Source: Amorphus orientalis
Lineage (GTDB): Bacteria; Pseudomonadota; Alphaproteobacteria; Rhizobiales; Amorphaceae
Assembly (NCBI RefSeq): GCF_030814015.1
Contig: NZ_JAUSUL010000001.1
Location: 1,578,001-1,642,000, forward strand
Length of the DNA: 64,000 bases
Direction of reading: 5' to 3'
Part shown: positions 9,919-57,470 of the stretch, piece by piece
Layout of the letters: every line of letters starts with the position of its first letter
Position numbering within the stretch: position 1 is the stretch's first letter
The notes under the pieces: generated by a model
Database searches by the model: none
What the model was told of the DNA's origin: nothing
The model's input: the letters and a program-made list of their open reading frames with translations, nothing else
Translations under genes and position numbers: made by a program

Positions 9919-10896
9919 ATGGTGTGCGCCATGTATTCGAGATCGATCGGGTTCGCTCTGGCGGTGACGGTGACCGGAGCAGCGATCGCTTGGTTCGTGC
10001 TATCCGGACATCGAGATGCTTCCGCGGAACCGAATGGTCCTGCCCACCTGCGGTCAGCGGAGCCGATCGTGCCGCTTCCGGCGGAGCCTGATCTCGACGA
10101 CGCACGCGTCGCATTGGGCGAGCGGCTGTTTCACGATCCGCGGCTTTCCGGTTCGGGCACGCTCAGATGTTCCTCGTGTCACGACCTCGGCAGCAACGGC
10201 GCCAGCAACGTGCCGCGGGACCTCGGTGACGGTGGCGAATTGCTGGCGGTCAATACGCCAACGGTGTTCAACGTCGGCTACAGCTTTCGGCTTGGCTGGG
10301 AGGGCCGTTTCCGACACTTGTCGGAGCACGCCGCAGCCCTCATCGAGAACCCGTTGATCATGGGAGTATCGCTGGACGAGGTCGTCGACCGGCTCAGGGT
10401 CGACCGCGAGCTGGTCGCGGCGTTCCAAAGAGCCTACGGGCGGCCCGTCGACAGGGCGAATCTCATAGACGCACTGGTCACTTTCGAGCGCTCACTTGTG
10501 ACACCGAACGCCCGGTTCGACAGCTGGCTCAATGGCGATCCGGACGCGCTGTCTGAGATCGAGATCGAAGGCTACCGGCTCTTCAAGTCGACGGGATGCG
10601 CGTCGTGCCACCAGGGGGTGGCCCTCGGCGCCAACCTGTTCCAGCGGCAGGGCGTGTTCGAACCGCTTGTCCCGCCGCCGCCCGACATCGTCAGGGTGCC
10701 GAGCCTGCGCAACATCGCGGCCACTGCGCCGTACTTCCATGACGGGAGCGCGGCGACGCTCGCGCAAGCGGTTCGCCGGATGGCAAGGGCGCAGCTCAAT
10801 TCCTCCCTTGCCGACGACGAGGTGGACAAGCTGGTCGCCTTCCTCGGCACGCTGACTGGCGAGTACCGCGGCGCTCCGGTTCACCCGGCGCCATGA
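9919..10896 (+). CDS. Diheme cytochrome c peroxidase / MauG-family protein
   Basis: The product has 325 residues. An N-terminal signal/anchor helix (about 7-28) precedes two c-type heme sites, C84-S-S-C-H88 and C227-A-S-C-H231, in the arrangement of bacterial diheme peroxidases. Other family markers are LGERLFHDPRLSGSGTLRC, NTPTVFNVG and APYFHDGS. It would act in the periplasm, reducing hydrogen peroxide or oxidising a protein or quinol partner in the MauG manner. An ATG at 9931 is an alternative start. Its stop overlaps the start of the sensor kinase gene by ATGA, an unusual coupling that suggests a sensory or protective role linked to that kinase. Confidence 0.88.
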   Translation: MVCAMYSRSIGFALAVTVTGAAIAWFVLSGHRDASAEPNGPAHLRSAEPIVPLPAEPDLDDARVALGERLFHDPRLSGSGTLRCSSCHDLGSNGASNVPRDLGDGGELLAVNTPTVFNVGYSFRLGWEGRFRHLSEHAAALIENPLIMGVSLDEVVDRLRVDRELVAAFQRAYGRPVDRANLIDALVTFERSLVTPNARFDSWLNGDPDALSEIEIEGYRLFKSTGCASCHQGVALGANLFQRQGVFEPLVPPPPDIVRVPSLRNIAATAPYFHDGSAATLAQAVRRMARAQLNSSLADDEVDKLVAFLGTLTGEYRGAPVHPAP

Positions 10897-13412
10897 GGAG
10901 GATCTGGCTCGCCGTGAGTGCGACATTGATCCTCCTCGCCCTGAGCTGGGCATGGCTTCACACGACCCGTATGGATGCGCGCGCCAATGCGCACGCAATG
11001 TCGGCTTTCACGGATTTCGTCAGCGCTGAGAACGGGCTGCATCGCGCGGTCCTGAGCGCCCGGTCAGGATCCCTCAGAAACTATGATTCGCTGGTGCGCG
11101 AGCTGGACGACATGCGGGCCGCGCTCGACAGGCTGAGACAGACAGCAGCGACCAGCGAAGTGCTCACACGGGAGTTCGCCGCGCTGACGGACCGCACAGA
11201 AGCCACGGAAGCCCTGGTCGAGCGGTTCAAAAGCACCAATGCGCTGCTTCATAACTCGCTGGCCTATTTCAGCCGTCTGCGCGAAGAGCTCGATGGGACC
11301 GAGCCTCCGGTGTCGCGCAAGGCCGACGGGCTCGCAACGGCGGTGCTCCGTCTTGTCGTCGATCCGTCGCCGGAAAGCCTTGACCTCCTCGACCAGGAGA
11401 TTGCCCGCATTGAACCAACCCATCCGGAGAGTCGCCCCGGCCTTTCCGCCTTGATCGCCCATGCCCGGCAGCTTCGCCTTGTCCTGCCGGACATGAACGC
11501 GACGCTGGTGGCCCTCGCGGGCCTTGGCACGGTGAGGGGCCTTGAAGCGGCACGGGCTGCGCTGTTGGCTCGACAGGCGACGATCACCGCGCGGGACGAT
11601 GCGGTCCGCCTCTTCCTCTATGCGCTTTCGCTGGTGCTTGTCGGCCTCCTCGCCTGGGCGGGCATTGAACTGCGGGAGAGGATCACGACACTGCGCCGAC
11701 GCGCGGCCATCGAGCATGTCATCGCGACGATCTCGCTGCGCTTTCTCAACGCCCCGCGGTGGAAGATGGATGCCCATCTCGCGACAGCGCTCGAGGAGCT
11801 GACTGACGGCTTTGGCGCGACGCGCGCTTATTTCACAGCGCCGGGCGTGCCAGAGCTGACCGTCACGCACGCGCGTGGCGGTCCTCCCTTTCCTGAAAGC
11901 TGGGGCCACGACGTCGCTGCGTACATGGCCGGCGCCCGGCTGGACGACAACGGCATTGTCCACATCGAAGATCTGAATGCGTACGCAGCGGGCTGTCCCG
12001 AACTTGCCCGATCCGGCATCGCGAGCTGCCTGTACATCGTGCGCCTCGGCGCTCCGGAAGGGACCGTCCAAGCGGTTCTGGGCTTCGACAGCCACCGCCC
12101 GCGCACTTTTCGCATGGCGGGAACCGATCAGCTTCTCATTCTGGCGTTCGATGCGCTGACCAATGCCGTCGCCAAGAGTGCGCTGGAAGATGAGCGAGAG
12201 CGGCTCGAGGCGCACCTGCTGCATGCCAGGCGTATGGAGACGGTCGGCGTCTTTGCCAGCGGCATCGCCCACAACTTCAACAACATCATCGGCGCCATCG
12301 CCGGTCATGCAGAAATGGCGGTAAGTCGGGTCGCGGCAGGTTCGTCTCTCGCCGGTCACATCGAGGCGATCCAGGTGGCGTCAGAACGCGCACGCGCTCT
12401 GGTGGATCAGATCCTCGGCTTCGGGCGCCGCAGCGAGAGCATGCGGCGAACGGTGCGGGTCGACGCACTGCTCGCCGAAACCGCCTCGCTGCTCGACACC
12501 TCCCTTCCGCCGAAGGCGCGGCTCGTCGTCGTGCCGGTTCCGAGCACCCTGGTCACGCAGGCGGACCCCGGACAGCTGCAGCAGGTCGTGCTCAACCTGT
12601 GCCACAACGCTGCCGACGCAATGGATGGGGACGGAACGGTTTCGGTCGCGGCCCGCGCGGCCCACCTCGCTCAGCCGCGAAGTTTCGCCGCGGATGTCCT
12701 GGCCCCCGGAGATTACGTCGTCATCTCAGTGGAGGACGATGGGCGCGGCATGGACGACGCGACCCTTTCCCGGATCTTCGAGCCCTTCTTCACGACGCGA
12801 CGCGAAGGCAACGGCCTTGGGCTCGCAACGGCGCTGGAGATCGCTCGCGGCCATCGCGGCACAATCACCGCGACGAGCAGACCCACGGCAGGCAGCTGCT
12901 TTGAAATCTGGCTGCCTGCGGCCTCAGCGGACACGATGACGGACGCGGGACACGCCGAAGGGCGGACGCTCCAATACGGCTCCGGAGAGACTGTGATGCT
13001 CGTCGAATGGGACGAGCGGCAGCGGATGCGATCGGAAGAGGTGCTTGCCGCGCTCGGCTACGAGCCCGTTTCATTCGCGGATTTGGAGCGTGCGGTCGAT
13101 GCCGTCCGTGCCGCGCCGGTGCGCTTCGATGCTGCCGTCATCTTCGCGCACGGCGGCGACTTTCCCGGCGCCCACCGCCCGGAGGGGCTTCACGAGGTCG
13201 CGCCACGGTTGCCGATCATCCTGTCCATAGAAGCCGCGCGGCACACCGACATCCTGCGGCTGTCGCATGCGGCCATCGCCGAGGTAATTCCTTACCCACC
13301 GACCTCTGCGCAGCTCGCGGATGCCCTGGCGGCCCGGTTGCAGGCCCGCCGCGATCCGCGGGCCAGCCTGGTGACGGACGGCCAAGCTTCGCCGCAGAAT
13401 TGGGGTCGCTGA
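10893..13412 (+). CDS. VirA-like hybrid sensor histidine kinase with degenerate receiver domain
   Basis: The 839-residue product has a TM helix near 4-21, a helical periplasmic region, a second TM near 230-250, a GAF-like domain (about 275-425), a HisKA box GIAHNFNNIIGAIAGHAE with H460, and an ATPase domain with LNLCHNAADAMDGDG, EDDGRGMDD and GNGLGLATALEIARGHRG. The C-terminal 130 residues have the outline of a receiver but lack both the phospho-acceptor Asp (DAAVIFAHGG) and the conserved Lys (IPYPPT), so this domain cannot take part in ordinary phosphotransfer. The architecture matches VirA-type kinases. A VirG/OmpR-type regulator is encoded at 17064-17882 and is a plausible partner. The gene overlaps the diheme peroxidase gene by four bases. 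Confidence 0.87.
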   Translation: MRRIWLAVSATLILLALSWAWLHTTRMDARANAHAMSAFTDFVSAENGLHRAVLSARSGSLRNYDSLVRELDDMRAALDRLRQTAATSEVLTREFAALTDRTEATEALVERFKSTNALLHNSLAYFSRLREELDGTEPPVSRKADGLATAVLRLVVDPSPESLDLLDQEIARIEPTHPESRPGLSALIAHARQLRLVLPDMNATLVALAGLGTVRGLEAARAALLARQATITARDDAVRLFLYALSLVLVGLLAWAGIELRERITTLRRRAAIEHVIATISLRFLNAPRWKMDAHLATALEELTDGFGATRAYFTAPGVPELTVTHARGGPPFPESWGHDVAAYMAGARLDDNGIVHIEDLNAYAAGCPELARSGIASCLYIVRLGAPEGTVQAVLGFDSHRPRTFRMAGTDQLLILAFDALTNAVAKSALEDERERLEAHLLHARRMETVGVFASGIAHNFNNIIGAIAGHAEMAVSRVAAGSSLAGHIEAIQVASERARALVDQILGFGRRSESMRRTVRVDALLAETASLLDTSLPPKARLVVVPVPSTLVTQADPGQLQQVVLNLCHNAADAMDGDGTVSVAARAAHLAQPRSFAADVLAPGDYVVISVEDDGRGMDDATLSRIFEPFFTTRREGNGLGLATALEIARGHRGTITATSRPTAGSCFEIWLPAASADTMTDAGHAEGRTLQYGSGETVMLVEWDERQRMRSEEVLAALGYEPVSFADLERAVDAVRAAPVRFDAAVIFAHGGDFPGAHRPEGLHEVAPRLPIILSIEAARHTDILRLSHAAIAEVIPYPPTSAQLADALAARLQARRDPRASLVTDGQASPQNWGR

Positions 13413-32383: not shown

Positions 32384-32544
32384 ATTTTCTCGCTATGGAG
32401 CCGGAGTCACGGGGTGTGATGCAGTGTCGTACGTCACGGCATTGACGATGCGCCGGTGCCTGTCCGTTCGGACGGGGACACGCACCCCATCCCCGGCTAA
32501 GGACCGACGTGAACGGCCCGCGGGCCACGGAGGAGAGAGCAGAG

Positions 32545-33528
32545 ATGTGGGATTTCTCGATTGCGCGGGCCCTCAGCCTGATGGTCCGGACGATGCCCTT
32601 CATCCTGTTGAGGATGGCGATCTATTTTGGCGCGGCGGTGGCCTACGTGCTCGTCACCGGCGTCGGCGCGGGCGTCGGATGGGGCGTCGGCGGGTTCGGA
32701 GACGCCGACTTCCAGGCGACCACGACGTTCTGGGGCGGGATCATCGGCTTCGGTGGCGTCGCCGCGGTGATGTATCTCCTGCGCAGCTACATCCTCTATA
32801 TCGTGAAGGCCGGGCACATCGCGGTGCTGGTGGAGCTGCTCGACGGCCGCGAGATGCCGCAGGGCCGCTCGCAGATCGGGCATGCAAGGCACGTCGTCAC
32901 CGAACGCTTCGGGCAGGCGAGCATCCTCTTCGGCGTCGACCGGCTGATCGCCGGCGTCATCCAGGCGATCACGGGCCTGGTGCGCGGCGTTCTCACGCTG
33001 GTGCCGATCCCCGGCGTGCAGCAGCTCGTCGGCGTCGCGCATGCGTTCCTGCGCATCGCGGTGGGCTTCGTCGACGAGGTGATCCTCGCTTATGCGATCC
33101 GCACCCGCTCGACCAATGCCTGGGAGTCCGCGCGCGAAGGGCTGGTCCTCTACGGCCAGAACTACAGGCCGATGTTCAAGAACGCCGCCTGGCTGGCCGT
33201 CTTCGTCTACGGCCTGTCCTTCCTGGTCTTCCTCGTCATGCTGGCGCCGGCGGCGCTTGCCGTCTACGTCATCCCGGGCGCCTGGTCGGCTGGCGGGCTC
33301 GTCTTCGCGCTCCTCTTCGCCTGGAGCGTCAAGGCGGCCCTTCTCGAGCCGTTCGCCATCACCTGCATGATGGAGGTTTATTTCCGGACGATCGAGGGAC
33401 AGGAGCCGGATCCGGCCTGGGATGCGAAACTCGAGCAGCTTTCCGGCAAGTTCCGCCGGCTGAAGGAGCAGGCGATGCAGGGCGGCACGGCTGCGCCGTC
33501 CGCGGACGCGCCGGCCCCCGCCGAGTAA
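32545..33528 (+). CDS. Multi-spanning inner-membrane protein, function unknown
   Basis: The product has 327 residues. Hydrophobic segments lie near 17-40, 58-85, 215-240 and 245-268. In between is an amphipathic helical region with a stretch of glycine/isoleucine (LIAGVIQAITGLVRGVLTLV) that may re-enter the membrane. The C-terminus is a charged cytoplasmic tail rich in Ala/Pro. I do not recognise a named family. GGAGAGAGCAGAG precedes the ATG. It opens the plus-strand locus of signalling and VWA genes and is divergent from the REC-LuxR regulator, suggesting that the regulator may control it. Confidence 0.75.
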   Translation: MWDFSIARALSLMVRTMPFILLRMAIYFGAAVAYVLVTGVGAGVGWGVGGFGDADFQATTTFWGGIIGFGGVAAVMYLLRSYILYIVKAGHIAVLVELLDGREMPQGRSQIGHARHVVTERFGQASILFGVDRLIAGVIQAITGLVRGVLTLVPIPGVQQLVGVAHAFLRIAVGFVDEVILAYAIRTRSTNAWESAREGLVLYGQNYRPMFKNAAWLAVFVYGLSFLVFLVMLAPAALAVYVIPGAWSAGGLVFALLFAWSVKAALLEPFAITCMMEVYFRTIEGQEPDPAWDAKLEQLSGKFRRLKEQAMQGGTAAPSADAPAPAE

Positions 33529-33626
33529 CACAGAACCATCGGCACGAATTTCTGCCCGGCCATGGACACGCGCGGCCGGTTTTGGTGTGCTTCGACGCGC
33601 GCATCATCGGCGCGTGGGGAGACGTG

Positions 33627-34202
33627 ATGCAGGCGAGAGGGAAGGATCCGGCGGCAAGGGGGTCGGGCCCGGGAGCCGCTGGCCTGCGGCGGCTTATGGT
33701 GCCGCTCGTCGTCGCACTGTCCGTTCTGTCGGTGTCGACCCCGCGCTCTGCGGAGGCTGCGTGCGACCTGCCGGAACCGACCGGAAAAGTCCTGCTGGAG
33801 ATTTCCGGGTCGATCGACTGCACCAATGACGGCGACACGGCGGTGTTCGATCGAGACGGGCTGACGGCCTTGCCGCAGCACACGCTGAAGACCACCACTG
33901 TCGTCACCGACGGTGTGAAGACTTTCCGCGGCTTCCGGATGCAGGACCTGCTGGACGCGGTCGGGGCGCACGGCGAAACGGCGGTGGCGCACGCCCTCAA
34001 CGACTATGTCGTCGACATCCCGCTGGACGACTTTTCCCGCTTCGAGGTGCTGGTGGCGCTGCGGATGGACGGCAAGCGGCTGACGGCGCGCGACAAGGGT
34101 CCGCTCTGGATCGTCTACCCGCGCGACCAGTACGCCGAGCTGCAGGACATCCGCTACGACTACCGATGGGTCTGGCAGCTCGACCGGCTGAAGATCCGAT
34201 GA
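33627..34202 (+). CDS. Exported molybdopterin-oxidoreductase-fold (SUOX-like) protein, sensor-associated
   Basis: The product has 191 residues, including a signal peptide (LMVPLVVALSVLSVSTPRSA then EA). The mature part has GLTALPQHTLKTTTVVTDG, FRGFRMQDLLDAVGA and DKGPLWIVYPRDQYAELQDI. These are hallmarks of the sulfite-oxidase/YedY molybdopterin-binding fold, here much shorter than the enzymes and without a clear Cys molybdenum ligand, so probably a ligand-sensing domain. GGGGAG precedes ATG 33627. Its stop overlaps the kinase start by ATGA, so it is probably an extracytoplasmic partner of that kinase. Confidence 0.75.
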   Translation: MQARGKDPAARGSGPGAAGLRRLMVPLVVALSVLSVSTPRSAEAACDLPEPTGKVLLEISGSIDCTNDGDTAVFDRDGLTALPQHTLKTTTVVTDGVKTFRGFRMQDLLDAVGAHGETAVAHALNDYVVDIPLDDFSRFEVLVALRMDGKRLTARDKGPLWIVYPRDQYAELQDIRYDYRWVWQLDRLKIR

Positions 34203-35629
34203 TCGGCGGCAGGAAGGCCCGGCTCGCCTTTTCCGTCTCAGGTGTCGCGATATTCGCATTCGTCATGCTGCTCGTCTTCGCGCTCGTCCGGCTCTGGGGG
34301 CCGGCGGCCGAGACGCGCCGCCACGTCGACAACAACATGCTGTGGGCGCTCTCCCAGGCGCATGCCGCGACGCTGCTTCTCGACAGCGCGGTGGCGCGGC
34401 GCGCGGGGGGCGTGCCCGGCGACGTGGCGCTCGAGCGGCGCTACAACGTGCTGCTGAGCCGCCTCAACCTGCTGACCCAGGGGCCGCAAGCCCGCTATCT
34501 GGCCGATCGCGGCTTTGCCGAACCTATCGAGAGGCGGAAGCAGGACGTACTCGCCCTGGATCCCCAGGTCTCCTCGCTGTCGGTGGGAGACGTCGAGCTG
34601 GCCGGCCGCATCCACGGCGTGCTGGGGCCTCTCGAACAACTGCTCGGCCGGGCTGCCAACAAGGCCATGGTCAGTCAGTGGAACGCCATCGGGGAACGGC
34701 TCGACGCAGAGCATTCCGCCATCGTTCAGGTGATCGCCTCGATCCTCGCCATCGCCGGGCTCGGCGGCATGATCTCCATCCTGATGGTGCGGGCCGTGCT
34801 CGCCAATCAGCAGGCGCAGCAGGCCCTGCGCCGGGAAACCGAGATGCGCGAGGCGTATCGCAGCTTCGTCGACCTGGTGTCGCATCAGTTCCGGACGCCG
34901 CTGTCGGTCATGGACGCCTCGATGCAGCGCATCCTGCGGCGCGGAGAGCTGATGCCGCGCGAGGAGATCGCGCAGCGCGTGCGCAGGATGCGCCACTTGA
35001 TCGGGGACCTGACGACGCTGATCGACACCACGCTCGATGGCATGCAGGCCGATGCCGGAAAGATCGAGGTTTGCGAGCAGGTCTGCGATCCGGTGGCGCT
35101 CCTGGAAAACGTCCGGCATCGACAGCTTGAGGCCACGCCGGGACGCCTGGTCGACCTGAACGTCGGTGCCAACGTGCCGCGCCGGGTGCTCAGCGATCCC
35201 GTTCTCGTCGAGCAGGTGCTCGCCAATCTCCTGTCGAATGCCATCAAGTATTCGCCGGAGGGCGAGCGCGTCGTCGTCACGCTGCAGGCTGATGGCGATT
35301 CGCTCGCCTTTTCGGTGCGGGACGACGGGATCGGCATTCCCGACGATGAGCAGGGGCAGGTGTTCAGCCGCTTTTTTCGTGCCCGCACCGCGGCCGGCTA
35401 TCCCGGCACCGGCGTCGGGCTCAACGTCTCGCGCAGGATCGCCGAAACGCTGGGCGGCTCGCTGAGCCTTCGCTCCAAGCAAGGGCTCGGCTCGACCTTC
35501 ACGCTCCAGCTGCCGCTCGTCCCCGCCGAGCTCGGCGAAGACCACGCCAGCGCCCCGCCCTCGGGTCGCAGCCACAAGACACGCCGGCAGCCCGTCCGAA
35601 CGAACGGGGCGGGCTGGGAGCGTCCGTAG
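34199..35629 (+). CDS. Membrane sensor histidine kinase
   Basis: The product has 476 residues. TM helices lie at about 11-30 and 175-197, enclosing a 140-residue all-helical periplasmic sensor. The HisKA box FVDLVSHQFRTPLSVMDAS holds H229. The ATPase domain shows LLSNAIKYSPEGE, RDDGIGIPDDEQ, FSRFFRA and GTGVGLNVSRRIAETLGG. A basic Arg/Pro-rich tail follows. It overlaps the SUOX-like periplasmic protein gene and has no regulator gene directly downstream; the REC-LuxR gene about 2 kb upstream on the other strand is the nearest candidate. Confidence 0.92.
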   Translation: MIGGRKARLAFSVSGVAIFAFVMLLVFALVRLWGPAAETRRHVDNNMLWALSQAHAATLLLDSAVARRAGGVPGDVALERRYNVLLSRLNLLTQGPQARYLADRGFAEPIERRKQDVLALDPQVSSLSVGDVELAGRIHGVLGPLEQLLGRAANKAMVSQWNAIGERLDAEHSAIVQVIASILAIAGLGGMISILMVRAVLANQQAQQALRRETEMREAYRSFVDLVSHQFRTPLSVMDASMQRILRRGELMPREEIAQRVRRMRHLIGDLTTLIDTTLDGMQADAGKIEVCEQVCDPVALLENVRHRQLEATPGRLVDLNVGANVPRRVLSDPVLVEQVLANLLSNAIKYSPEGERVVVTLQADGDSLAFSVRDDGIGIPDDEQGQVFSRFFRARTAAGYPGTGVGLNVSRRIAETLGGSLSLRSKQGLGSTFTLQLPLVPAELGEDHASAPPSGRSHKTRRQPVRTNGAGWERP

Positions 35630-35725
35630 TAGAGCCTCCTCAGCATCGGTTCGGCCGGCGGCGTGTCCGCGAGCCGGGCTGGAGTGCCGTTCGCGGCCGG
35701 CGAAGGGAGCCACGAGAAATCCACC

Positions 35726-36322
35726 ATGAGTGTCTGGTTCTGGGTGATCGGCCCCATTGTGCTGGTCATCGGCTATATTTGGTACGCGACCCTGATCCGG
35801 CGGCGGAACAGGGCTCAGGAGGCGCTGTCGTCCATCGACGTGCAGTTGCGCAAGCGCCACGACCTTCTGCCCAACATCCTCAAGCTCGCCGACCGCTTCA
35901 TGGCGCACGAGCGTGACCTGCTCACGCGGGTGACGGACCTGCGCAACCAGGCGCAGAAGCCCTACGACCCGAACCAGCAGGCGGAGGTGCGCGAGCATCT
36001 CGACGCGGAAGGTTCGCTCCAGGCCGGCGTCCGCCAACTTTTCGCGCTGGCAGAGAACTATCCGGAGCTGCGTTCCAGCGAGACGGTCGTGCAGGCGCAG
36101 GAGACGTTCAACGAGGTCGAGGGGCACATCTCCGCAGCGCGGCGCTTCTACAATTCCGCCGTCACCGACCTGAACAGCGCCATCCAGGTTTGGCCCGGCC
36201 CGCTCATCGCCGGCATCGCGGGTGTCCAGGCCATGCCGTTCTTCGAGATCGAGGACGAGGCGGTGCGCCGGCCGATCGACGCCGACAGCTACATCAACCT
36301 GCCGAAAGCCTCGACCGAGTGA
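35726..36322 (+). CDS. LemA family membrane protein
   Basis: The product has 198 residues. One N-terminal TM helix (about 3-22) is followed by RNRAQEALSSIDVQLRKRHD and LLPNILKLADRF, the LemA core, and ends with FNEVEGHISAARRFYNSAVT then DLNSAIQVWP. LemA proteins form helical bundles anchored in the inner membrane; their function is poorly known. It directly precedes a DUF3137 gene (14-base gap), a recurrent pairing in Gram-negative bacteria. Confidence 0.93.
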   Translation: MSVWFWVIGPIVLVIGYIWYATLIRRRNRAQEALSSIDVQLRKRHDLLPNILKLADRFMAHERDLLTRVTDLRNQAQKPYDPNQQAEVREHLDAEGSLQAGVRQLFALAENYPELRSSETVVQAQETFNEVEGHISAARRFYNSAVTDLNSAIQVWPGPLIAGIAGVQAMPFFEIEDEAVRRPIDADSYINLPKASTE

Positions 36323-36336
36323 GAATGAGGGGAAGA

Positions 36337-37386
36337 ATGAAGAGCGTGGCAAGCCGCGAAGAGACCGGATTCGACCGTGCCGACTTCGGTGCCTACTACG
36401 AGGCCGAGATTGCCCCCGATCTGGCGCAGATCGAGGGACGCCGCAAGCTCATGGCTTTCGGCGTCAGGGCGTTGTGGGGCCTCTCAGGCGTGGGGCTGCT
36501 GCTGTTCCTGTCGGCCGGCATGCTGGCGCCGAGCCTCGGGATGGACCGCGATACGCTCGGCTTCGCCGGCGGCGCGCTCCTGTTCGGGGGGATCGGCGGT
36601 GCGATCCTGCTCGGCAAGCTCGCGCGCGCTCCGTTCAAGCGGATCCTGGTGGGCCGGACGTGTGCCTTTTTCGGCCTCGACTACAAGACGAAAGGCTTCG
36701 ACTTCCCGATTGACGCTTTCCGCGACGCCGAGATCCTTCCGCGCTTCGACAAGCACCGGCTGCGCGACGGGATTTCCGGCAGGCATCGGGGCGTCGATAT
36801 CCAGATCTGCGAGGCTGTGCTGACGAGAGTCCGCGACAACAGCCGCGGCAATTCCATCGACAGGAAGAGCGAGGAAGCCTTCGATGGCCTGCTGCTGGCC
36901 TATGGCTTTGCCGAGCCCTTCAGCGGCGACACCGTGGTGCTGTCGGACATGACCTGGCTCGGCAACAAGCTGAAGGGGCTGACGCAGAGCGGCGAACGCG
37001 TGACGCTCGAGGATCCCGAGTTCGAGCGCCAGTTCGAGGTCTATTCCGACGATCAGGTCGAGGCGCGCTACCTGCTTCAGCCTCGTTTCATGGAGCGGCT
37101 GGTCTCGCTCGCCGGGCGGCTGAACGCCGGCAAGCGCATGTCGCTCGCCTTTCGCGGCAACCGTCTCCTGGTGGCGTTGCGAACGGACGCCGACTTCTTC
37201 GAGGGCGGTGCCGTGGGCAAGGACGCCACCGACCGCGAGCGGGCGGAAGAACTGCTCAGGGAAATCCAGATGATCTTCAACGTCGTCGACGTGCTCGACC
37301 TCGGCGAACGCCGCACCGGCGGCGAGGGTGGCAAGGGCGACGGCACGCGCGCGGGCGGGATCTCCGCCGCCTTTGCTGGCGGCTAG
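36337..37386 (+). CDS. DUF3137 membrane protein
   Basis: The product has 349 residues. Two adjacent TM helices (about 35-60 and 67-85) are followed by a large cytoplasmic domain containing FPIDAFRDAEILPRFDKHR, VLTRV, FDGLLLAYGF and DPEFERQFEVYSDDQVEARY, the pattern of DUF3137 proteins. Their role is unknown, and they are often next to LemA genes. ATG 36337 is preceded by AGGGGAAGA. An ATG at 36325 is also possible. Confidence 0.88.
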   Translation: MKSVASREETGFDRADFGAYYEAEIAPDLAQIEGRRKLMAFGVRALWGLSGVGLLLFLSAGMLAPSLGMDRDTLGFAGGALLFGGIGGAILLGKLARAPFKRILVGRTCAFFGLDYKTKGFDFPIDAFRDAEILPRFDKHRLRDGISGRHRGVDIQICEAVLTRVRDNSRGNSIDRKSEEAFDGLLLAYGFAEPFSGDTVVLSDMTWLGNKLKGLTQSGERVTLEDPEFERQFEVYSDDQVEARYLLQPRFMERLVSLAGRLNAGKRMSLAFRGNRLLVALRTDADFFEGGAVGKDATDRERAEELLREIQMIFNVVDVLDLGERRTGGEGGKGDGTRAGGISAAFAGG

Positions 37387-37428
37387 GCGATCCCGATGCG
37401 GAACCAGCGAACAGAAGGGGGAATCCAC

Positions 37429-39708
37429 ATGCTCCGAGCCATATGCCTCGGTCTCATCGCCTGCACGCTGACGCTTGGCGGTACGGGAAGCGCGCGGGCG
37501 GCGGATGACGTCATGGTCATCTTCGACGGGTCGAACTCGATGTGGGGCCAGATCGACGGCACCGCGAAGATCGAGATTGCGCGCGACGCGATGACCGAGC
37601 TTGTCGGGGCGTGGGACAAGGACACGAATCTCGGCCTGATGGCCTACGGCCATCGCCGCGAGGCGGACTGCTCGGACATCGAGACGATCATTCCGCCTCG
37701 CCCGATGGATCGGGACGCGTTCATGTCGAACGTCGAGGGCATCGTGCCGCGCGGCAAGACCCCTCTCACCTCCGCGATCGAGCAGGCGGCGGAGACGCTG
37801 TCCTATCGCGACAACCCGGCGACCGTTGTCGTCATCTCCGACGGGATCGAGAGCTGCAACCGCGATCCGTGCGCGCTCGCCGGACAGCTCAAGCGCAGCG
37901 GCGTGCGCTTTACCGCCCACGTCATCGGCTTCGGCCTCGACAGCGCGGAGGAGCAGAAGGGCCTTGCCTGCATTGCCGAGGAGACGGGAGGCCGGTTCCT
38001 GACCGCGGCGAACGCCGGTGAGTTGCGCGATGCCTTCAAGGAAGTGGGCTCCGAAGTCACGCAGGCAGCGCCGGAACCCGAGCCCGAGCCGGAGCCGACC
38101 GAGGACATCGAGGTGACGGCTCCGGCAAGCATTCCGGCGGGTGGCGACTTCGAAGCCTCGTGGAGCAAGACGCTCGACGACAGCGACATCCTGACGATCG
38201 TGCCGACCGGAGCCGACGACGACCAGATCGGCAACCATGAGCGGGCGAGCGACGGCAATCCGGTCACGCTTCGGGCGCCGGCCGAAACCGGCATGTACGA
38301 GGTGCGCTATGTCTCGAACGAGGGGCGCGAGGTGCTGGGCTCCGCCTCCGTCGAGGTGACGGATCCCCAGGTCGAGATTTCGGCGCCCGACAGCGTGACG
38401 CGGGGCGGCGAGCTCGAGGTGTCCTGGAGCGGCACGGTGAACGGCCGGGATATCCTGACGATCGTGCCGGCGGGCTCGGACGACGACCGGATCGGCAACC
38501 ACGAGCGGGTGAACGACGGCAATCCGGTGACGCTGCGGGCGCCGGCCGAGCCCGGCATGTACGAGGCGCGCTACGTGCTCGATGAGGGGCGCCGCGTGCT
38601 TGCCTCGGTGCCGGTCGAGGTGACCGACGCGCAGGTGCAGGTTTCTGCGCCGGACAGCGTGGTTGCGGGAAGCTCGTTCGAGGTGTCGTGGAGCGGCACG
38701 GTGAACGGCCGGGATATCCTGACGATCGTGCCGGCGGGCTCGGACGACGACCGGATCGGCAACCATGAGCGGGTGAACGACGGCAAGCCGGTGACGCTGC
38801 GGGCGCCGGCCGAGCCCGGCATGTACGAAGCGCGCTATGTGCTCGACGAAGGGCGCCGTGTGCTGGCCTCGGTGCCGGTCGAGGTGACCGACGCGCAGGT
38901 CCAGATTTCTGCTCCGGACAGCGTGGTCGCGGGAAGTTCATTCGAGGTGTCGTGGAGCGGCACGGTGAGCGGCCGCGACATCCTGACGATCGTTCCCATG
39001 GGGGCGGAAGCGGACGAGATCGGCAACCACGAACGGGTGAACGACGGCAACCCGGCGAAGCTGCGGGCTCCCGGCAAGCCCGGCCTCTATCAGGTGCGCT
39101 ACGTGCTCGACGAGGGCCGGCGTCCGCTTGCCGATGCGACCGTCGAGGTGACGGAGCCGGACGTCTCGGTGTCGGCCACGGACACGGTCCGGGCCAAGGG
39201 AGAGATTGAGGTCAGCTGGACCGGTACCGCGCCGAGCGGACGCGACATTATCACGGTGGTTCCGGCGGGTTCCGAGGAGGACGAGATCGGCAATCACGAG
39301 CGGGTCGGCGACGGCGACGCCACCACGCTGCGTGCGCCCGAGAAGCCGGGCCTCTACGAAGTGCGCTACGTGCTCGACGAAGGCCGGCGGATGCTGGCTA
39401 GCACGCAGGTGGAGATCGTGCCGGAGACGGCGGCCCTCGATGCCGGCGCCTCGCTTGACGTGCCGAAGACGGCCAGCCCCGGGGAGGAGATCCAGGTGGG
39501 CTGGACGGGAGGTTCCGACAGCGCCGACCAGCGGATCGCGCTCGCCAAGGCTGACCAGGCCGACTTCACATGGATCGAGGTGCACAAGGTCGGCAACGAG
39601 CCGCCGATGAGCTTCACCATGCCGGACGCGCCGGGATCTTACGAGTTTCGGTTCCTCGACATCCCGGGGCAGGCGGTGCTGAGCCGGGCGATAATCGAAG
39701 TGAAGTAG
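37429..39708 (+). CDS. Secreted von Willebrand A protein with tandem 88-residue repeats
   Basis: The product has 759 residues. A signal peptide (ends GSARA) is followed by a VWA domain (about 27-215) with the metal-binding DGSNSMWG motif, GLMAYGHRREADCSDIE and VVISDGIESCN. An acidic Glu-Pro linker leads to five similar repeats of about 88 residues (DNA units begin at 38107, 38371, 38635, 38899 and 39163) plus a divergent sixth. Each repeat has SWSGT, RDILTIVP, IGNHER, LRAP, GMYEARYVLDEGRRVLAS and looks like an all-beta domain. It is probably a periplasmic or surface protein that binds a protein or polymer. GGGGGAA precedes the ATG. It follows LemA and DUF3137 genes. Confidence 0.88.
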   Translation: MLRAICLGLIACTLTLGGTGSARAADDVMVIFDGSNSMWGQIDGTAKIEIARDAMTELVGAWDKDTNLGLMAYGHRREADCSDIETIIPPRPMDRDAFMSNVEGIVPRGKTPLTSAIEQAAETLSYRDNPATVVVISDGIESCNRDPCALAGQLKRSGVRFTAHVIGFGLDSAEEQKGLACIAEETGGRFLTAANAGELRDAFKEVGSEVTQAAPEPEPEPEPTEDIEVTAPASIPAGGDFEASWSKTLDDSDILTIVPTGADDDQIGNHERASDGNPVTLRAPAETGMYEVRYVSNEGREVLGSASVEVTDPQVEISAPDSVTRGGELEVSWSGTVNGRDILTIVPAGSDDDRIGNHERVNDGNPVTLRAPAEPGMYEARYVLDEGRRVLASVPVEVTDAQVQVSAPDSVVAGSSFEVSWSGTVNGRDILTIVPAGSDDDRIGNHERVNDGKPVTLRAPAEPGMYEARYVLDEGRRVLASVPVEVTDAQVQISAPDSVVAGSSFEVSWSGTVSGRDILTIVPMGAEADEIGNHERVNDGNPAKLRAPGKPGLYQVRYVLDEGRRPLADATVEVTEPDVSVSATDTVRAKGEIEVSWTGTAPSGRDIITVVPAGSEEDEIGNHERVGDGDATTLRAPEKPGLYEVRYVLDEGRRMLASTQVEIVPETAALDAGASLDVPKTASPGEEIQVGWTGGSDSADQRIALAKADQADFTWIEVHKVGNEPPMSFTMPDAPGSYEFRFLDIPGQAVLSRAIIEVK
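38107..39162 (+). repeat. Four tandem 264-bp repeats within the VWA gene
   Basis: Units start at 38107, 38371, 38635 and 38899, each exactly 264 bp. Units 2 and 3 are almost identical at DNA level over most of their length, and unit 4 is nearly as close in its first half. A more diverged fifth unit follows. The pattern indicates recent expansion and probable slippage or recombination. Confidence 0.85.
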
Positions 39709-39942
39709 GCGAGGGCGGGAGCCCGCGTGGCGATTTCCGACGGAAGCGTATCGGCAACGGACGGATCGAGCTCCGCGCGGAGCAGGTGGCGCTGCAGATC
39801 CGCGATGTTCGCGGCGAGGGACGTGACGATCTCCTAAGTGCCCAGAGCCGAGCAGCTGATGGGTGCACCTGCACAACGACAGCCCCGCGACCTGCGCGTC
39901 AGGTCCGCGCTTGAGCCAATGAACAGCAAGGGAAGCCAAGAC

Positions 39943-41259
39943 ATGCAGCGATGGATGATGCTAGCGACGCTGGGTGCGCTCTGCCTCTCCGCCGCACCGG
40001 CGAGTGCGCAGCCGGAGACCTCGAGCGAGACGACCATGATCGTGCTCGACGGATCCGGCTCGATGTGGGGCCAGATCGACGGCACGTCCAAGATCGAGAT
40101 CGCTCGAGAGGCGATCGGACGGCTGGTCGCCGACTGGCCGGAGGGCCGGGCTCTCGGGCTGATGGCCTACGGGCATCGCCGGGAAGCCGACTGCGGCGAC
40201 ATCGAAACCCTGGTCGCGCCCGGCCCGCTCGACATGGATACCGTCAACGCGGCCGTGTCCGAGGTAACGCCGCGCGGCAAGACTCCGATCGGCGGCTCGG
40301 TGCGTGCCGCCTCCGATGCGATCGGCGACGCGATGTCCTCGTCGGTTATCGTCGTCACCGACGGGTTGGAGAATTGCGGCGCCGATCTGTGCGCTCTCGG
40401 CGATGAACTGGCGGCCGGTGGCACCGGTCTCAAGACACATGTGATCGGCTTCGATATCGCAGAGAGCACCGACCAGCTTGCGTGTCTGGCCGAGGCGACC
40501 GGCGGTCGCTACCTCGCGGCCGAGGATGCCGAAAGCCTGACCGGCGCGCTGCAGGAGGTCGCCGCGGAGCCTGAACCGGAGCCGGCCGGACCGATCGCGG
40601 TCGACGAGTTCGATCGCGCCGAACTCGGAGCGGGATGGGAAATCGCGCACCCCGCTCCGCAGAACTATGTGCTGGACGGTGGCAAGCTCGTGGCGCTGAC
40701 CGCTCGGCCCGGCAACATCGACGATCCGGAGCAGCCGAATGTCTTCCGCTGGCGTGAGGCGGAGCTTCCGGAGGGTGACTGGGAGATCGCAGCCGAGTTC
40801 AGGGCCGAACTGGGTGAAGTGCAAACACTCGGCGGCCGTAAGGCGGTGGTCGAGGTGGCGTTGTTCTCCGATCCGGAAAACAACATCGTCGCGCGGATCT
40901 ACCGGCAGGGCAATTCCAACGATGACATGCACCTGCAGATCACCAGCACTTCAGGTGGCAACGCAACCAGCGATTCCGTTGAGATCGCCGGCGACATTCG
41001 TGGCTACGACCTCGCGCGCATTCTCACCGACTTCAAGGAGAAGGGCGTCCGCCTGGTGCTTGCCAAGCAAGGACGGGAGTATCGAGCCCGATTGGAGATG
41101 AATGGCTGGGCGATGACCGACGGGGGGCCGGAGGTGATCGAGACCGAGCCGGTGCAGGTGCTGCGGGCGGCCGGCGATCCGGCCCTTTTTGCAGGTACGT
41201 GGGGCGATAAGCAGACCGTGGTGGAGTTCGACCGGATCGAGATCCTGGCGGCCGAATAG
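39943..41259 (+). CDS. Secreted von Willebrand A protein with beta-rich C-terminal domain
   Basis: The product has 438 residues. A signal peptide ending ASAQ is followed by a VWA domain (about 28-210) with DGSGSMWGQIDGTSKIEIAR, GLMAYGHRREADCGDIE and VVTDGLENCG. This domain is clearly paralogous to the VWA domain of the preceding gene. After a Glu-Pro linker comes a different domain (about 220-438) with DEFDRAELGAGWEI, EGDWEIAAEF, NNIVARIYRQGNS and an ending VVEFDRIEILAAE, resembling a jelly-roll sugar- or polymer-binding sandwich. AGGGAAG lies upstream of ATG 39943; 39919 is an alternative. Confidence 0.85.
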   Translation: MQRWMMLATLGALCLSAAPASAQPETSSETTMIVLDGSGSMWGQIDGTSKIEIAREAIGRLVADWPEGRALGLMAYGHRREADCGDIETLVAPGPLDMDTVNAAVSEVTPRGKTPIGGSVRAASDAIGDAMSSSVIVVTDGLENCGADLCALGDELAAGGTGLKTHVIGFDIAESTDQLACLAEATGGRYLAAEDAESLTGALQEVAAEPEPEPAGPIAVDEFDRAELGAGWEIAHPAPQNYVLDGGKLVALTARPGNIDDPEQPNVFRWREAELPEGDWEIAAEFRAELGEVQTLGGRKAVVEVALFSDPENNIVARIYRQGNSNDDMHLQITSTSGGNATSDSVEIAGDIRGYDLARILTDFKEKGVRLVLAKQGREYRARLEMNGWAMTDGGPEVIETEPVQVLRAAGDPALFAGTWGDKQTVVEFDRIEILAAE

Positions 41260-42367: not shown

Positions 42368-42550
42368 TTCGGATTGAGGCACGAACAACAGCCCCGTCCG
42401 CGTCTGTCTGACTGACAATGTCGGTTGTTTGGCCTTGCGTCTCTTCCGGACAGCTTTGTCCGTTCGGAAGTGCGTTCGTAGCCGCCTCGAATTGACAGCG
42501 TTGCGGGTTCCGTGACGGGTTATCCGATCGCAAGAGACCGTCAATCGAGC

Positions 42551-42564
42551 TTGTCGAAGCGCAA
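42551..42564. promoter_or_regulatory. Candidate NnrR/DNR box upstream of the DUF1858 gene
   Basis: TTGTCGAAGCGCAA has the TTG-N8-CAA framework of the Crp/Fnr superfamily. It is centred about 60 bases before the DUF1858 ATG and resembles the boxes before pseudoazurin and nirK. Confidence 0.55.
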
Positions 42565-42586
42565 CGTCGGACGGGCGCACACGCGC

Positions 42587-42600
42587 TTTCCTGCAGGAAA
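42587..42600. promoter_or_regulatory. 14-bp perfect palindrome before the DUF1858 gene
   Basis: TTTCCTGCAGGAAA lies just upstream of the ribosome-binding site. It may be an operator or a small 5' hairpin; no regulator is assigned. Confidence 0.35.
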
Positions 42601-42616
42601 CCGGCAGGAGCTTGGA

Positions 42617-42847
42617 ATGACAGACCCGTGCGCGGTGGGCCCCGACATGGTCCTCGATGACCTCATGCGAACCTGGCCCGCCACGATAGGCGTTCTCATA
42701 CGGTACCGGATGCTGTGCATCGGATGTCCGATCAACGCGTTCCACACCGTGGCGGAGGCATGTGCCGCGCACGGGGTCGACGAAGCGTGCTTCACCGCCG
42801 ATCTCATCGAGGCGGCTGTCGGCGGTGAGCGGGCGGACACGGGTTAA
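42617..42847 (+). CDS. DUF1858 small redox-disulfide protein
   Basis: The product has 76 residues. The domain reads DDLMRTWPATIGVLIRYRML then CIGCPINAFHTV, with a C-x-x-C pair in the typical position. DUF1858 proteins resemble the N-terminal domain of ScdA/YtfE and often sit near nitrogen-oxide genes. The function is unknown and may involve redox or metal handling under nitrosative stress. GGAGCTTGGA directly precedes the ATG. A TTG-N8-CAA box lies upstream. Confidence 0.88.
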   Translation: MTDPCAVGPDMVLDDLMRTWPATIGVLIRYRMLCIGCPINAFHTVAEACAAHGVDEACFTADLIEAAVGGERADTG

Positions 42848-42887
42848 AGGCTAGGCCCGGCATTCACGCGCCGAAGGGCGCGCGGCG

Positions 42888-43589
42888 CTAGCCCTTCTTC
42901 CGGGCTTCGGCGATCAGAAGCAGCCCGTGGGCATCGGTCACGACCACCTTCTTGCGGGCGCTGCGCACGAGACCCTCGTCCTCCCACGCGCTGAGCAGGC
43001 GGCTGACGGTGTGAAGCGTCGTACCGGTCATCTCCGCGATGTCCTGGCGGGTGATCGGAAAGTCGATCTCGATGCCATCGGCGATCTTCCGTCCCGACTG
43101 ATTGACGAGACGAAGCAGGGTGTGGGCGACGCGTTGCTCGACCTGCTCCGTGGACGCCTCGACCACCCGGGCCTGTGTTTCCTGGAGGCGGGCGCCGATG
43201 GTCTCGTAGGCGGCGTGACCGACCGACGGCAGTCGGGATTGCAGTTCGTTCCAGAAGCCGTTCGGCCAGGCCAGTGCCACGGAATCGACCGCCGCGACGG
43301 CGCTGGCCGGATAGGTCGGCATGCCGAGTGCCACCCCTATGCCGAACAGTTCGCCTTCGTTGATGTAGCGGGCGATCACCTGATGGCCGTCAGGGGATGT
43401 CTTCACCACGCGGAGGTGACCGGACAGGAGCAGAAAGAAGGAGCGGTTCTCTTCGCCCTGGCCGAACACCTCGCTGCCGGCCGGATAGTGCGCCGACCAG
43501 GCGCGAGACAGGATCAGGTCGAGATCGTCTGCTTCAAGCCCGCGAAACGACGGCAGATCGCGAATGAGCGAACGGTCGAGCGTCGGCAT
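42888..43589 (-). CDS. Crp/Fnr-family regulator, NnrR/DNR-like
   Basis: The product has 233 residues. The cyclic-nucleotide-binding-like beta barrel (residues 15-125) contains GEENRSFFLLLSGHLRV. The winged helix near the end has ITRQDIAEMTGTTLHTVSRL then LSAWEDEG. There are no cysteines near the N-terminus, so it is not an FNR-type iron-sulfur sensor, which fits the NO/heme-responsive NnrR/DNR groups. In the recognition helix His stands where FNR has Glu. AAGGAG precedes the ATG. It is divergent from pseudoazurin and within reach of nirK, whose promoters share a matching box. Confidence 0.85.
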   Translation of the reverse strand: MPTLDRSLIRDLPSFRGLEADDLDLILSRAWSAHYPAGSEVFGQGEENRSFFLLLSGHLRVVKTSPDGHQVIARYINEGELFGIGVALGMPTYPASAVAAVDSVALAWPNGFWNELQSRLPSVGHAAYETIGARLQETQARVVEASTEQVEQRVAHTLLRLVNQSGRKIADGIEIDFPITRQDIAEMTGTTLHTVSRLLSAWEDEGLVRSARKKVVVTDAHGLLLIAEARKKG

Positions 43590-43698
43590 GGAGGGCTCCT
43601 TCAGTGCCGCGTGCCGTGAATGGCGCCGGCGGACCAGCACCACGGTCCGACGAGTCCGGCCCCGCGCAGGCCTTCTGTCAAGCCTACCGCCGCGGAGT

Positions 43699-43712
43699 TT
43701 GCGAAAGCACAA
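43699..43712. promoter_or_regulatory. Candidate NnrR/DNR box upstream of pseudoazurin
   Basis: TTGCGAAAGCACAA is a near-symmetric TTG-N8-CAA element centred about 84 bases before the pseudoazurin ATG, in the region shared with the divergent Crp/Fnr gene. It differs little from the nirK box (TTGCAGAACCACAA on the minus strand). Confidence 0.68.
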
Positions 43713-43789
43713 AAAAGACGGCCGCTGCAGGTCTACTCCTTCCTCAACGGCAAGACGCCGTCGTGCTCCAGACAGGAAGGACCAGAACC

Positions 43790-44233
43790 ATGAACAAGAC
43801 AATCGCAGCCGTGGCGCTTGGAGCGCTCGTTGGCTTCGCCGGCGCGGCCAACGCCGCCGAATTCGAGATCAAGATGCTGAACAAGGGCGAAGCCGGCGTG
43901 ATGGTGTTCGAGCCCGCCTATGTGAAGGCCGCGCCCGGCGACACCGTCCGGTTCGTCGCGACCGACAAGGGACACAACGCGGAGACCATCAAGGGCATGG
44001 TTCCCGATGGCGCGCAGCCGTTCAAGGGCAAGTTCAACGAAGAGGTCGTCGTGACCCTCGATCAGGAAGGCATCTACGGCATCAAATGCATGCCCCACTA
44101 CGCCATGGGCATGGTCGCGGTCATCGAGGTCGGCGAGCCCACGAACCTCGCCGAGGCGCAGGACGTGAGGCATCCGGGCAAGGCCAAGACGGTCTTCGCC
44201 GACATCTTCTCCACCCAGGTGGCGGCGAAATAG
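43790..44233 (+). CDS. Pseudoazurin, blue copper electron carrier
   Basis: The product has 147 residues. A signal peptide ends ANAA, and the mature protein starts EFEIKMLNKGEAGVMVFEPA. The type 1 copper ligands are H in DKGHNAE, and C, H and M in IKCMPHYAMGM. It carries electrons in the periplasm from the cytochrome bc1 complex to NirK, encoded in this same cluster. AGGAAGG precedes the ATG. An NnrR-like box lies upstream, and the gene is divergent from the Crp/Fnr regulator. Confidence 0.96.
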   Translation: MNKTIAAVALGALVGFAGAANAAEFEIKMLNKGEAGVMVFEPAYVKAAPGDTVRFVATDKGHNAETIKGMVPDGAQPFKGKFNEEVVVTLDQEGIYGIKCMPHYAMGMVAVIEVGEPTNLAEAQDVRHPGKAKTVFADIFSTQVAAK

Positions 44234-56453: not shown

Positions 56454-57470
56454 ATGCTGTCACGCCGCATGTTCGTCGGCGCTGCGTCGGCGCTCGCACT
56501 CACCGTTTCCATGACCGGCGGTGCCGTTGCACAGGACAAGCTCGACGTCGTCGCAAGCTTCTCGATCCTCGGAGACATGGTCCACCAGATCGGCGGCGAT
56601 GCCGTGTCGGTCACCACCCTCGTGGGTCCCGACGGCGACGCCCACGTCTACGAGCCGACGCCCGCCGACGCCAAGGCGCTCTCCCAGGCGGACGTCCTCG
56701 TGGTCAATGGCCTCGACTTCGAAGGCTGGCTTCCCCGCCTGGTGGAAGCCTCAGAGTTTTCCGGCCGACAGGTCGTCGCCAGCACGGGCATCGACGCGCT
56801 GACCTGGGCCGAACCGGAAGAGGGCCACGACCACGATCACGATCACGAGGCGCATGATCACGGCGAGCACGAGCACAATCATGCGGAACACGATCACGAC
56901 CATGAGGAGCACGCCGAAGAGGGGCATCACCACCACGGCGACTATGATCCCCATGCCTGGCAGAGCCTTGGCAACGGCATGATCTACGCCAACAACATCG
57001 CCAAGGCGCTCGCAGAGGCCGATCCGGCCCATGCCGACGGCTACCAGGAGCGCGCCGAAGCCTATGTGGCTGAGCAACAGGCGCTGGATGCGAAGCTGAA
57101 GAAGGAATTCGGAGCGCTGCCGGAGGCCCACCGAAAGGTCGTCACCTCCCACGACGCCTTCCAGTATTTCGGCAAGGCCTACGGCGTGCAGTTCATCGCA
57201 CCGGAAGGCATCAGCACCGAGGCGGAGCCGTCCGCAGCCGACATCGCCCGGATCATCGACCAGATCCGCGACGAACAGATCGCGGCCGTGTTCGTGGAGA
57301 ACATCAGCGACAACCGCGTGATCGAGCAGATCACCCGCGAGACCGGTGCCAAGGTCGGCGGAGAACTTTACTCCGACGCGCTCTCCGGACCGGACGGCCC
57401 CGCGCCGACCTATGTCGACATGTTCGACTACAACTCCAGGCAGCTTCTCGGCGCGCTCAGCGGCAGCTGA
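56454..57470 (+). CDS. znuA: Zinc-binding periplasmic protein ZnuA
   Basis: The product has 338 residues. A signal peptide (ends GAVAQ) is followed by VVASFSILGDMVHQIGG. A His/Asp/Glu-rich loop lies at about 125-161. The metal-site residues are H64 (GDAHVYEP), H167 (DYDPHAW), His in SHDAFQYF and the late Asp. The loop is the usual zinc-acquisition and sensing element of ZnuA. AAAGGAAAA precedes the ATG. It is the last gene of the zinc operon. Confidence 0.95.
   Translation: MLSRRMFVGAASALALTVSMTGGAVAQDKLDVVASFSILGDMVHQIGGDAVSVTTLVGPDGDAHVYEPTPADAKALSQADVLVVNGLDFEGWLPRLVEASEFSGRQVVASTGIDALTWAEPEEGHDHDHDHEAHDHGEHEHNHAEHDHDHEEHAEEGHHHHGDYDPHAWQSLGNGMIYANNIAKALAEADPAHADGYQERAEAYVAEQQALDAKLKKEFGALPEAHRKVVTSHDAFQYFGKAYGVQFIAPEGISTEAEPSAADIARIIDQIRDEQIAAVFVENISDNRVIEQITRETGAKVGGELYSDALSGPDGPAPTYVDMFDYNSRQLLGALSGS

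Follow-up and report, generated by a model that had tools for sequence, protein, structure and literature searches.

Architecture of the locus

The DNA analysed here, hereafter the window, is a stretch of 64,000 nt from Amorphus orientalis (assembly GCF_030814015.1, contig NZ_JAUSUL010000001.1, positions 1,578,001–1,642,000, forward strand). On its forward strand lies an ORF of 770 aa (37396–39708), hereafter the VWA-repeat gene, for which the ORF list, Pfam, and a fold model together delineate a signal-like N-terminus, a VWA head, five Ig-like repeats, and a cap. The N-terminal segment was judged signal-like by eye, and an alternative ATG start at 37429 is placed directly at it. Pfam is confident for the VWA domain only (aa 38–215; 37507–38040; PF00092 with 47.0 bits against a cut-off of 23.8 and PF13519 with 47.5 bits against 27; E 3e-12 to 4e-12). 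This domain retains an intact DxSxS...T...D metal site, and D33, S35, S37, T111, and D138 (numbering from 37429), which we take to be the VWA metal-site residues (motif DxSxS / T / D), are invariant in a 12-row alignment of full-length relatives, as are C81, C143, C148, and C181. With an E value of 3e-12 and a complete set of metal-site residues, the designation as a VWA protein in an earlier note on this DNA is well founded.

The head is followed by a tandem array (38098–39420), in which units 1 to 4 (38098–38361, 38362–38625, 38626–38889, and 38890–39153; 88 aa each) follow one another with a period of exactly 264 bp (TRF score 1257), and unit 5 (39154–39420) is a specialized last unit of 89 aa (267 bp) carrying an RA motif near residues 13–14. 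Behind it lies the cap (39439–39705), a divergent sixth unit that is conserved between proteins, shares 26% identity with unit 3 (E 3e-4), and is found again with profiles. The array had previously been recognized correctly but placed at 38107–39423 with all units at 264 bp, a length that holds for the first four only, and the cap had been missed. The repeats belong to no Pfam family, and NCBIfam names nothing above its cut-off; a Pfam scan of 74 repeat units at E ≤ 0.01 returned only PPC, weakly, in two units (best E 0.0026), in keeping with the earlier remark that the motif could not be named. The unit query has no further match elsewhere in the genome (13 contigs, 97% complete), which encodes two other VWA proteins, one directly downstream and devoid of the repeats (39907–41259, forward strand) and one at C1:1261775.

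Five genes precede the VWA-repeat gene on the same strand, encoding a membrane-type protein of ~330 aa without a Pfam family (32509–33528), whose relatives adjoin VWA-repeat genes at nine other loci, a molybdopterin-binding-domain protein (PF00174; 33600–34202, ORF start uncertain), a histidine kinase (34166–35629; HATPase_c, with HisKA just under the cut-off), a LemA family protein (35663–36322), and a DUF3137 protein (36334–37386). Elsewhere in the window are a histidine kinase with a DAHL domain (10893–13412), adjacent genes for a DUF1858 protein, a Crp/Fnr-type regulator, and an azurin-type copper protein (42512–44233), and a ZnuA-type zinc-binding protein (56454–57470) with a short His/Asp/Glu-rich tandem stretch (56828–56913).

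Predicted fold of the repeat

The earlier note had proposed to predict the fold of one repeat and to search fold databases with it, and this yields a confident Ig-like sandwich: the AlphaFold model of a single unit, built from the 74 aligned units, is a seven-strand sandwich with a pLDDT of 90.5 and a pTM of 0.80. Foldseek finds no match to this model at E ≤ 0.001. VIA-align ranks the SKICH domain of NDP52 first (Z 10.8, 1.9 Å, 86 residues), followed by GH66 and Bap domains (8.9; Bap being 7c7u) and by PKD (~8); the ranking applies to the families on the fold-search list, and families absent from it may also be relatives of the repeat. The SKICH domain of NDP52 is eukaryotic and cytosolic. Membership of the repeat in this family was considered and rejected because the two share the fold but no sequence link: a sequence profile run against the PDB at E ≤ 1 recovers no solved relative of the repeat and no NDP52 chain, and Pfam recognizes nothing besides PPC in the 74 units. 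NDP52/CALCOCO2 is thus the best structural neighbor of the unit, which is modeled as an Ig-like sandwich, and the fold match implies no function. In a full-length model (759 residues, 12 sequences), each unit is predicted to form a β sandwich with short linkers in between, and Foldseek pairs it with multi-Ig arrays at low TM-score. The domains reach a pLDDT of 83 with a pTM of 0.39, so a rod arrangement is not established by the model.

Age and constraint of the duplication

Compared in register, units 2 and 3 agree at 237 of 264 nt (89.8%) and at 79 of 88 aa (90%), and 19 of the 27 differences fall within the first 63 nt. Silent differences occur in 13 codons for the same residue, and 44 of 51 fourfold sites agree. 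A closer resemblance appears once the register is shifted: the youngest tandem duplication, 264+264 bp (38440–38967, forward strand), does not follow the boundaries of the domain units, and its halves (38440–38703 and 38704–38967) are identical at 250 of 264 nt (94.7%) and 86 of 88 aa, with 13 of the 14 differences at third positions and agreement at 49 of 55 fourfold sites. This block holds the longest run of exact tandem identity in the window's array, 77 bp; given its shortness, assembly collapse is less likely in the window.

When synonymous codons of the same gene were drawn at random, the shifted block was expected to show 214.6 ± 5.5 identical bases (maximum 236 in 5000 draws). Since the observed value exceeds every draw, chance and codon bias are excluded for this block, and its likeness is due to true shared ancestry. 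By the Nei–Gojobori method, the halves differ by a dN of 0.010 and a dS of 0.198 (dN/dS ~0.05), showing by computation that the window's own duplicate is under strong purifying constraint. All other unit pairs have 57–78% aa identity and a dS of 0.49–0.79. The youngest duplication is therefore genuine and constrained but not very recent. Of the earlier description of units 2 and 3 as nearly identical even at silent sites, the shared ancestry stands, but the near-identity does not, given 13 silent codon changes and a dS of ~0.20 even in the best block; likewise, "recently expanded" is apt relative to the other units but not for a duplication of that dS.

Relatives and repeat number

Within the genus (two genomes searched, own included), the other Amorphus genome lacks the VWA-repeat gene; of 10 genomes searched in the family, only the window's own carries the array and one other gives a weak match; at the level of the class, the repeat profile finds matches in 15 of 289 genomes. 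A scan of contigs located seven loci with relatives. VWA, repeats, and cap occur together in Rhodobacteraceae, a Roseovarius, and the gammaproteobacterium Sediminihaliea, and a Desulfobacteraceae MAG encodes a VWA domain with five repeats and no recognized cap. Among plasmid records, a further 60 have matches, including some from Deinococcus. Complete relatives have three to nine repeats each by profile, weaker units counted. Two of the matching records, NZ_CP066787.1 and CP070277.1, agree in length (166,348 bp), match, and sample source but are filed as Martelella lutilitoris (Alphaproteobacteria) and as a Dysgonomonadaceae bacterium, so that one of the labels is probably wrong. In literature coverage that left out most subscription journals, no description was found, whether for Rhodobacteraceae or for alphaproteobacteria at large, of VWA proteins whose repeats are tandem or Ig-like, nor of VWA domains with repeat number variation or COG2304-type proteins; titles retrieved for VWA/LemA/DUF3137 held nothing of evident relevance.

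Duplicates fresher than that of the window are found among these relatives. Exact tandem matches of 116–320 bp occur in six loci of the same type (L071, L073, L074, L075, L079, and L080), with the period staying at 264/267 bp; L074 has two identical 264-bp stretches and the 320-bp exact tandem match, and the matches in L080, L073, and L071 measure 200, 150, and 143 bp, respectively. The Deinococcus plasmids L082 and L083 carry VWA-repeat genes of the same family, whose exact tandem matches, one per species, measure 162 and 58 bp. Seven draft loci (L017, L018, L020, L021, L065, L066, and L067) have their array interrupted by a contig end or an N gap, as is expected with near-identical repeats, and counts from short-read drafts are therefore lower bounds.

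A change in repeat number is seen directly in one pair of plasmid genes. L071 (Pseudosulfitobacter pseudonitzschiae) and L076 (Paracoccus denitrificans HAMBI_2443) encode four repeats plus cap and five repeats plus cap, respectively, the genes being separated by one clean, in-frame gap of 267 bp; outside it, only 35 of 2301 positions differ (98.5% identical), with four of these differences in the initial 945 nt, which make up the VWA part, and five in the last 288 nt. The likeness extends over 4802 bp (L071 1–4802, L076 2602–7403; 97.6% identical) across genera, which, as judged from the sequences, points to recent transfer between them. In other comparisons the number is constant. The 30 Pseudosulfitobacter records with a match, probably a single clonal group, do not differ anywhere in the gene. 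In Deinococcus taeanensis and D. deserti, the repeat number is the same and the units are orthologous by position (94–95% vs 76–78%), and the congeneric L058 and L059 both have five repeats, of which units 2, 4, and 5 pair by position (support 97, 99, and 88) and the forks for units 1 and 3 are open. The ongoing copy-number change suggested earlier is thus found in the family, in the L071/L076 pair and the fresh duplicates of L074, but not for the window's own gene, whose youngest duplication already has a dS of ~0.20 and which has no orthologue in the other genome of the genus. Phase variation in the on/off sense, with phase-variable surface proteins named earlier as a parallel, is not supported, because steps of 264/267 bp, like the observed indel, keep the frame and so alter length rather than switch expression. 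Split frames in two arrays of one genome (L065 and L066 of G168) were considered as frameshift or phase variation and rejected, both being 100-N scaffold gaps in near-identical repeats.

Similarity of inner units, last unit, and cap

In a tree of 98 units (88 columns), in which many forks are open, the five units of the window form one clade (support 97), the five from L016 form another (98), and the caps cluster together (96; 100 without L055). A mosaic comparison of 15 proteins, chosen for having a cap and thus not a random sample, resolves identity by position within the unit. Over residues 25–88, inner units share 0.81 identity within a protein versus 0.50 between proteins. Over residues 9–24, the last unit is closer to its counterparts in other proteins (0.45) than to the inner units of its own (0.37), and over residues 25–60 the relation is reversed (0.40 vs 0.60). 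The RA motif near residue 13 is present in 15 of 15 last units and in none of the 15 penultimate ones. Given that units group by protein and caps across proteins, the array is homogenized; we read this as an inner array homogenized by recombination or conversion, with a terminal unit and cap that seem to be fixed and selected.

Genes accompanying the array

Neighbors were clustered at 33 loci (the window, 13 plasmid loci, and 19 others), with L022, L059, L067–L070, L072, L076, and L086 left out. The membrane-type family occurs at 10 of these loci, window included, an SH3-like exported family at seven, an exported family of ~180 aa at seven, and the molybdopterin-domain protein together with the histidine kinase at four, again including the window; the latter pair is also present at L076. 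Many loci have no shared neighbors, meaning that the repeat gene also stands alone. At some loci, then, a membrane protein, a histidine kinase, and small exported proteins are encoded alongside the gene, an association suggestive of a role in envelope sensing or attachment. LemA and DUF3137 occur at none of 50 other loci searched (tblastn, E ≤ 1e-5; 39 of the 50 carry a match of the VWA-repeat type), and a universal operon with these two genes was accordingly rejected. The membrane protein is found in only four of the 289 genomes of the class, three of which are among the 15 with repeats. In G024 and G168, it does not adjoin the repeat gene in the stretches fetched, and the link is thus only partial. 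A cluster of membrane protein, molybdopterin-domain protein, and histidine kinase, corresponding to 32509–35629 of the window, is also present in a stretch of G168 (L094) that holds no VWA-repeat gene. A role in anti-phage defense was considered and set aside, as PADLOC, run on ten proteins taken from the locus and its relatives, gave nothing convincing, the only hits being weak ones to a histidine kinase and PglX.

Interpretation

The explanation that we favor, and to which we give a little better than an even chance, is that the gene product is an exported protein whose VWA head is carried by an exchangeable stalk of Ig-like domains ending in a conserved cap, and which would work like a Periscope Protein at a putative surface site and on a putative ligand. 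Whole domains would be gained or lost when units undergo unequal homologous recombination or conversion, with breakpoints anywhere inside the unit, and the stalk would thereby change in length with the frame intact; the head would bind a protein or glycan ligand via its metal site, the stalk would set reach or avidity, and the protein would reside in the periplasm or at the cell surface. Neither an outer-membrane anchor nor a secretion partner was recognized for it, which counts against this explanation, since a protein confined to the periplasm could not act as a periscope. The constant repeat number of several relatives, the orthologue missing from the other genome of the genus, and the full-length pTM of 0.39 weigh on the same side.

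The analogy is drawn from what two sources (PMC8201768, PMC9704523) describe for Periscope Proteins such as SasG, Rib, Sgo_0707, and CdrA. As there, an N-terminal domain of a functional type is followed by tandem, highly similar, individually folded domains, the individual folding being predicted here by the one-unit model; the number of whole units differs between near-identical family members in one pair (L071/L076) and is constant in others, and similar repeat DNA is expected to feed recombination. Unlike the proteins described there, that of the window is Gram-negative, has no sortase signal and no recognized autotransporter or other anchor, and combines a VWA head with a repeat family absent from Pfam; it has just one in-register unit pair above 80% aa identity (2/3), and length variation is known from its relatives rather than from A. 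orientalis. We do not assign the protein to this class and say only that it would work, by analogy, like its members, since its surface location is putative and repeat number is seen to differ between genera rather than within a species. Also close are bacterial secreted VWA proteins with Ig-like domains, such as those of COG2304. They share the Sec-type N-terminus, the VWA domain, and Ig-like modules with the protein studied here, which differs in its defined, homogenized tandem array, its conserved cap, and a module unnamed in Pfam and NCBIfam. Bap and other bacterial Ig-like stalk domains likewise present an Ig-like sandwich in repeat arrays (7c7u, Z 8.9), with no sequence relation detected; to our knowledge, Bap has no VWA head.

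Among the alternatives, the most serious, although we consider it unlikely on the whole, is that the protein stays in the periplasm and serves an envelope signaling locus as a structural or scaffold component, in which the repeats are generic spacers whose copy number drifts neutrally through recombination, with length unselected. The lack of a recognized surface anchor, the equal repeat number in several pairs, and a neighborhood of histidine kinase, molybdopterin-domain protein, and membrane protein are all consistent with it, but a dN/dS of ~0.05 and the special conservation of last unit and cap argue that the array is not a featureless spacer. It is also possible that the VWA-repeat protein is an adhesin. 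A specific form of this idea, a biofilm matrix or adhesin protein whose repeats themselves bind polysaccharide or cell wall and whose VWA domain is regulatory or serves assembly, gains from fold neighbors that include a biofilm-associated protein domain and carbohydrate-binding sandwiches, and from periscope-type proteins in which the repeats bind ligand, LysM being an example in PMC8201768. We nevertheless hold it improbable, because sandwich folds of many unrelated functions score a comparable Z, no conserved binding-site signature beyond core residues was identified in the units, and no exopolysaccharide genes were recognized among the neighbors examined. Least credible of all is that strong protein constraint and biased codon use alone, without duplication or conversion, made the repeats alike: high-GC codon bias does lift the expected identity, to 214.6 of 264, but the 250 observed surpass all 5000 draws, and the 77-bp exact run, the clustering of units within proteins, and the one-unit indel in relatives all speak against it.

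The stalk interpretation favored above can be carried further, to a speculative picture that we regard as rather unlikely in its entirety: an alphaproteobacterial, plasmid-travelling envelope module, whose VWA receptor, with its metal site, would stand on an Ig-like stalk of tunable length and be read by the linked pair of histidine kinase and molybdopterin-domain protein, with recombination setting the reach and the kinase signaling. The repeat would then be a new domain family, and the last unit with its RA motif would, together with the cap, be a fixed docking end.

Length-varying stalk proteins are best described for Gram-positive surface proteins, and the gene studied here adds to them a Gram-negative case in which a VWA domain is joined to a repeat that belongs to no Pfam family. 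The conserved unnamed neighbors, namely, the membrane protein of ~330 aa and the small exported proteins, make up a testable functional module. In L071 and L076, moreover, there is a natural pair of near-identical plasmid genes, from two genera and one domain apart, that is suited to asking whether the length of the stalk affects binding.
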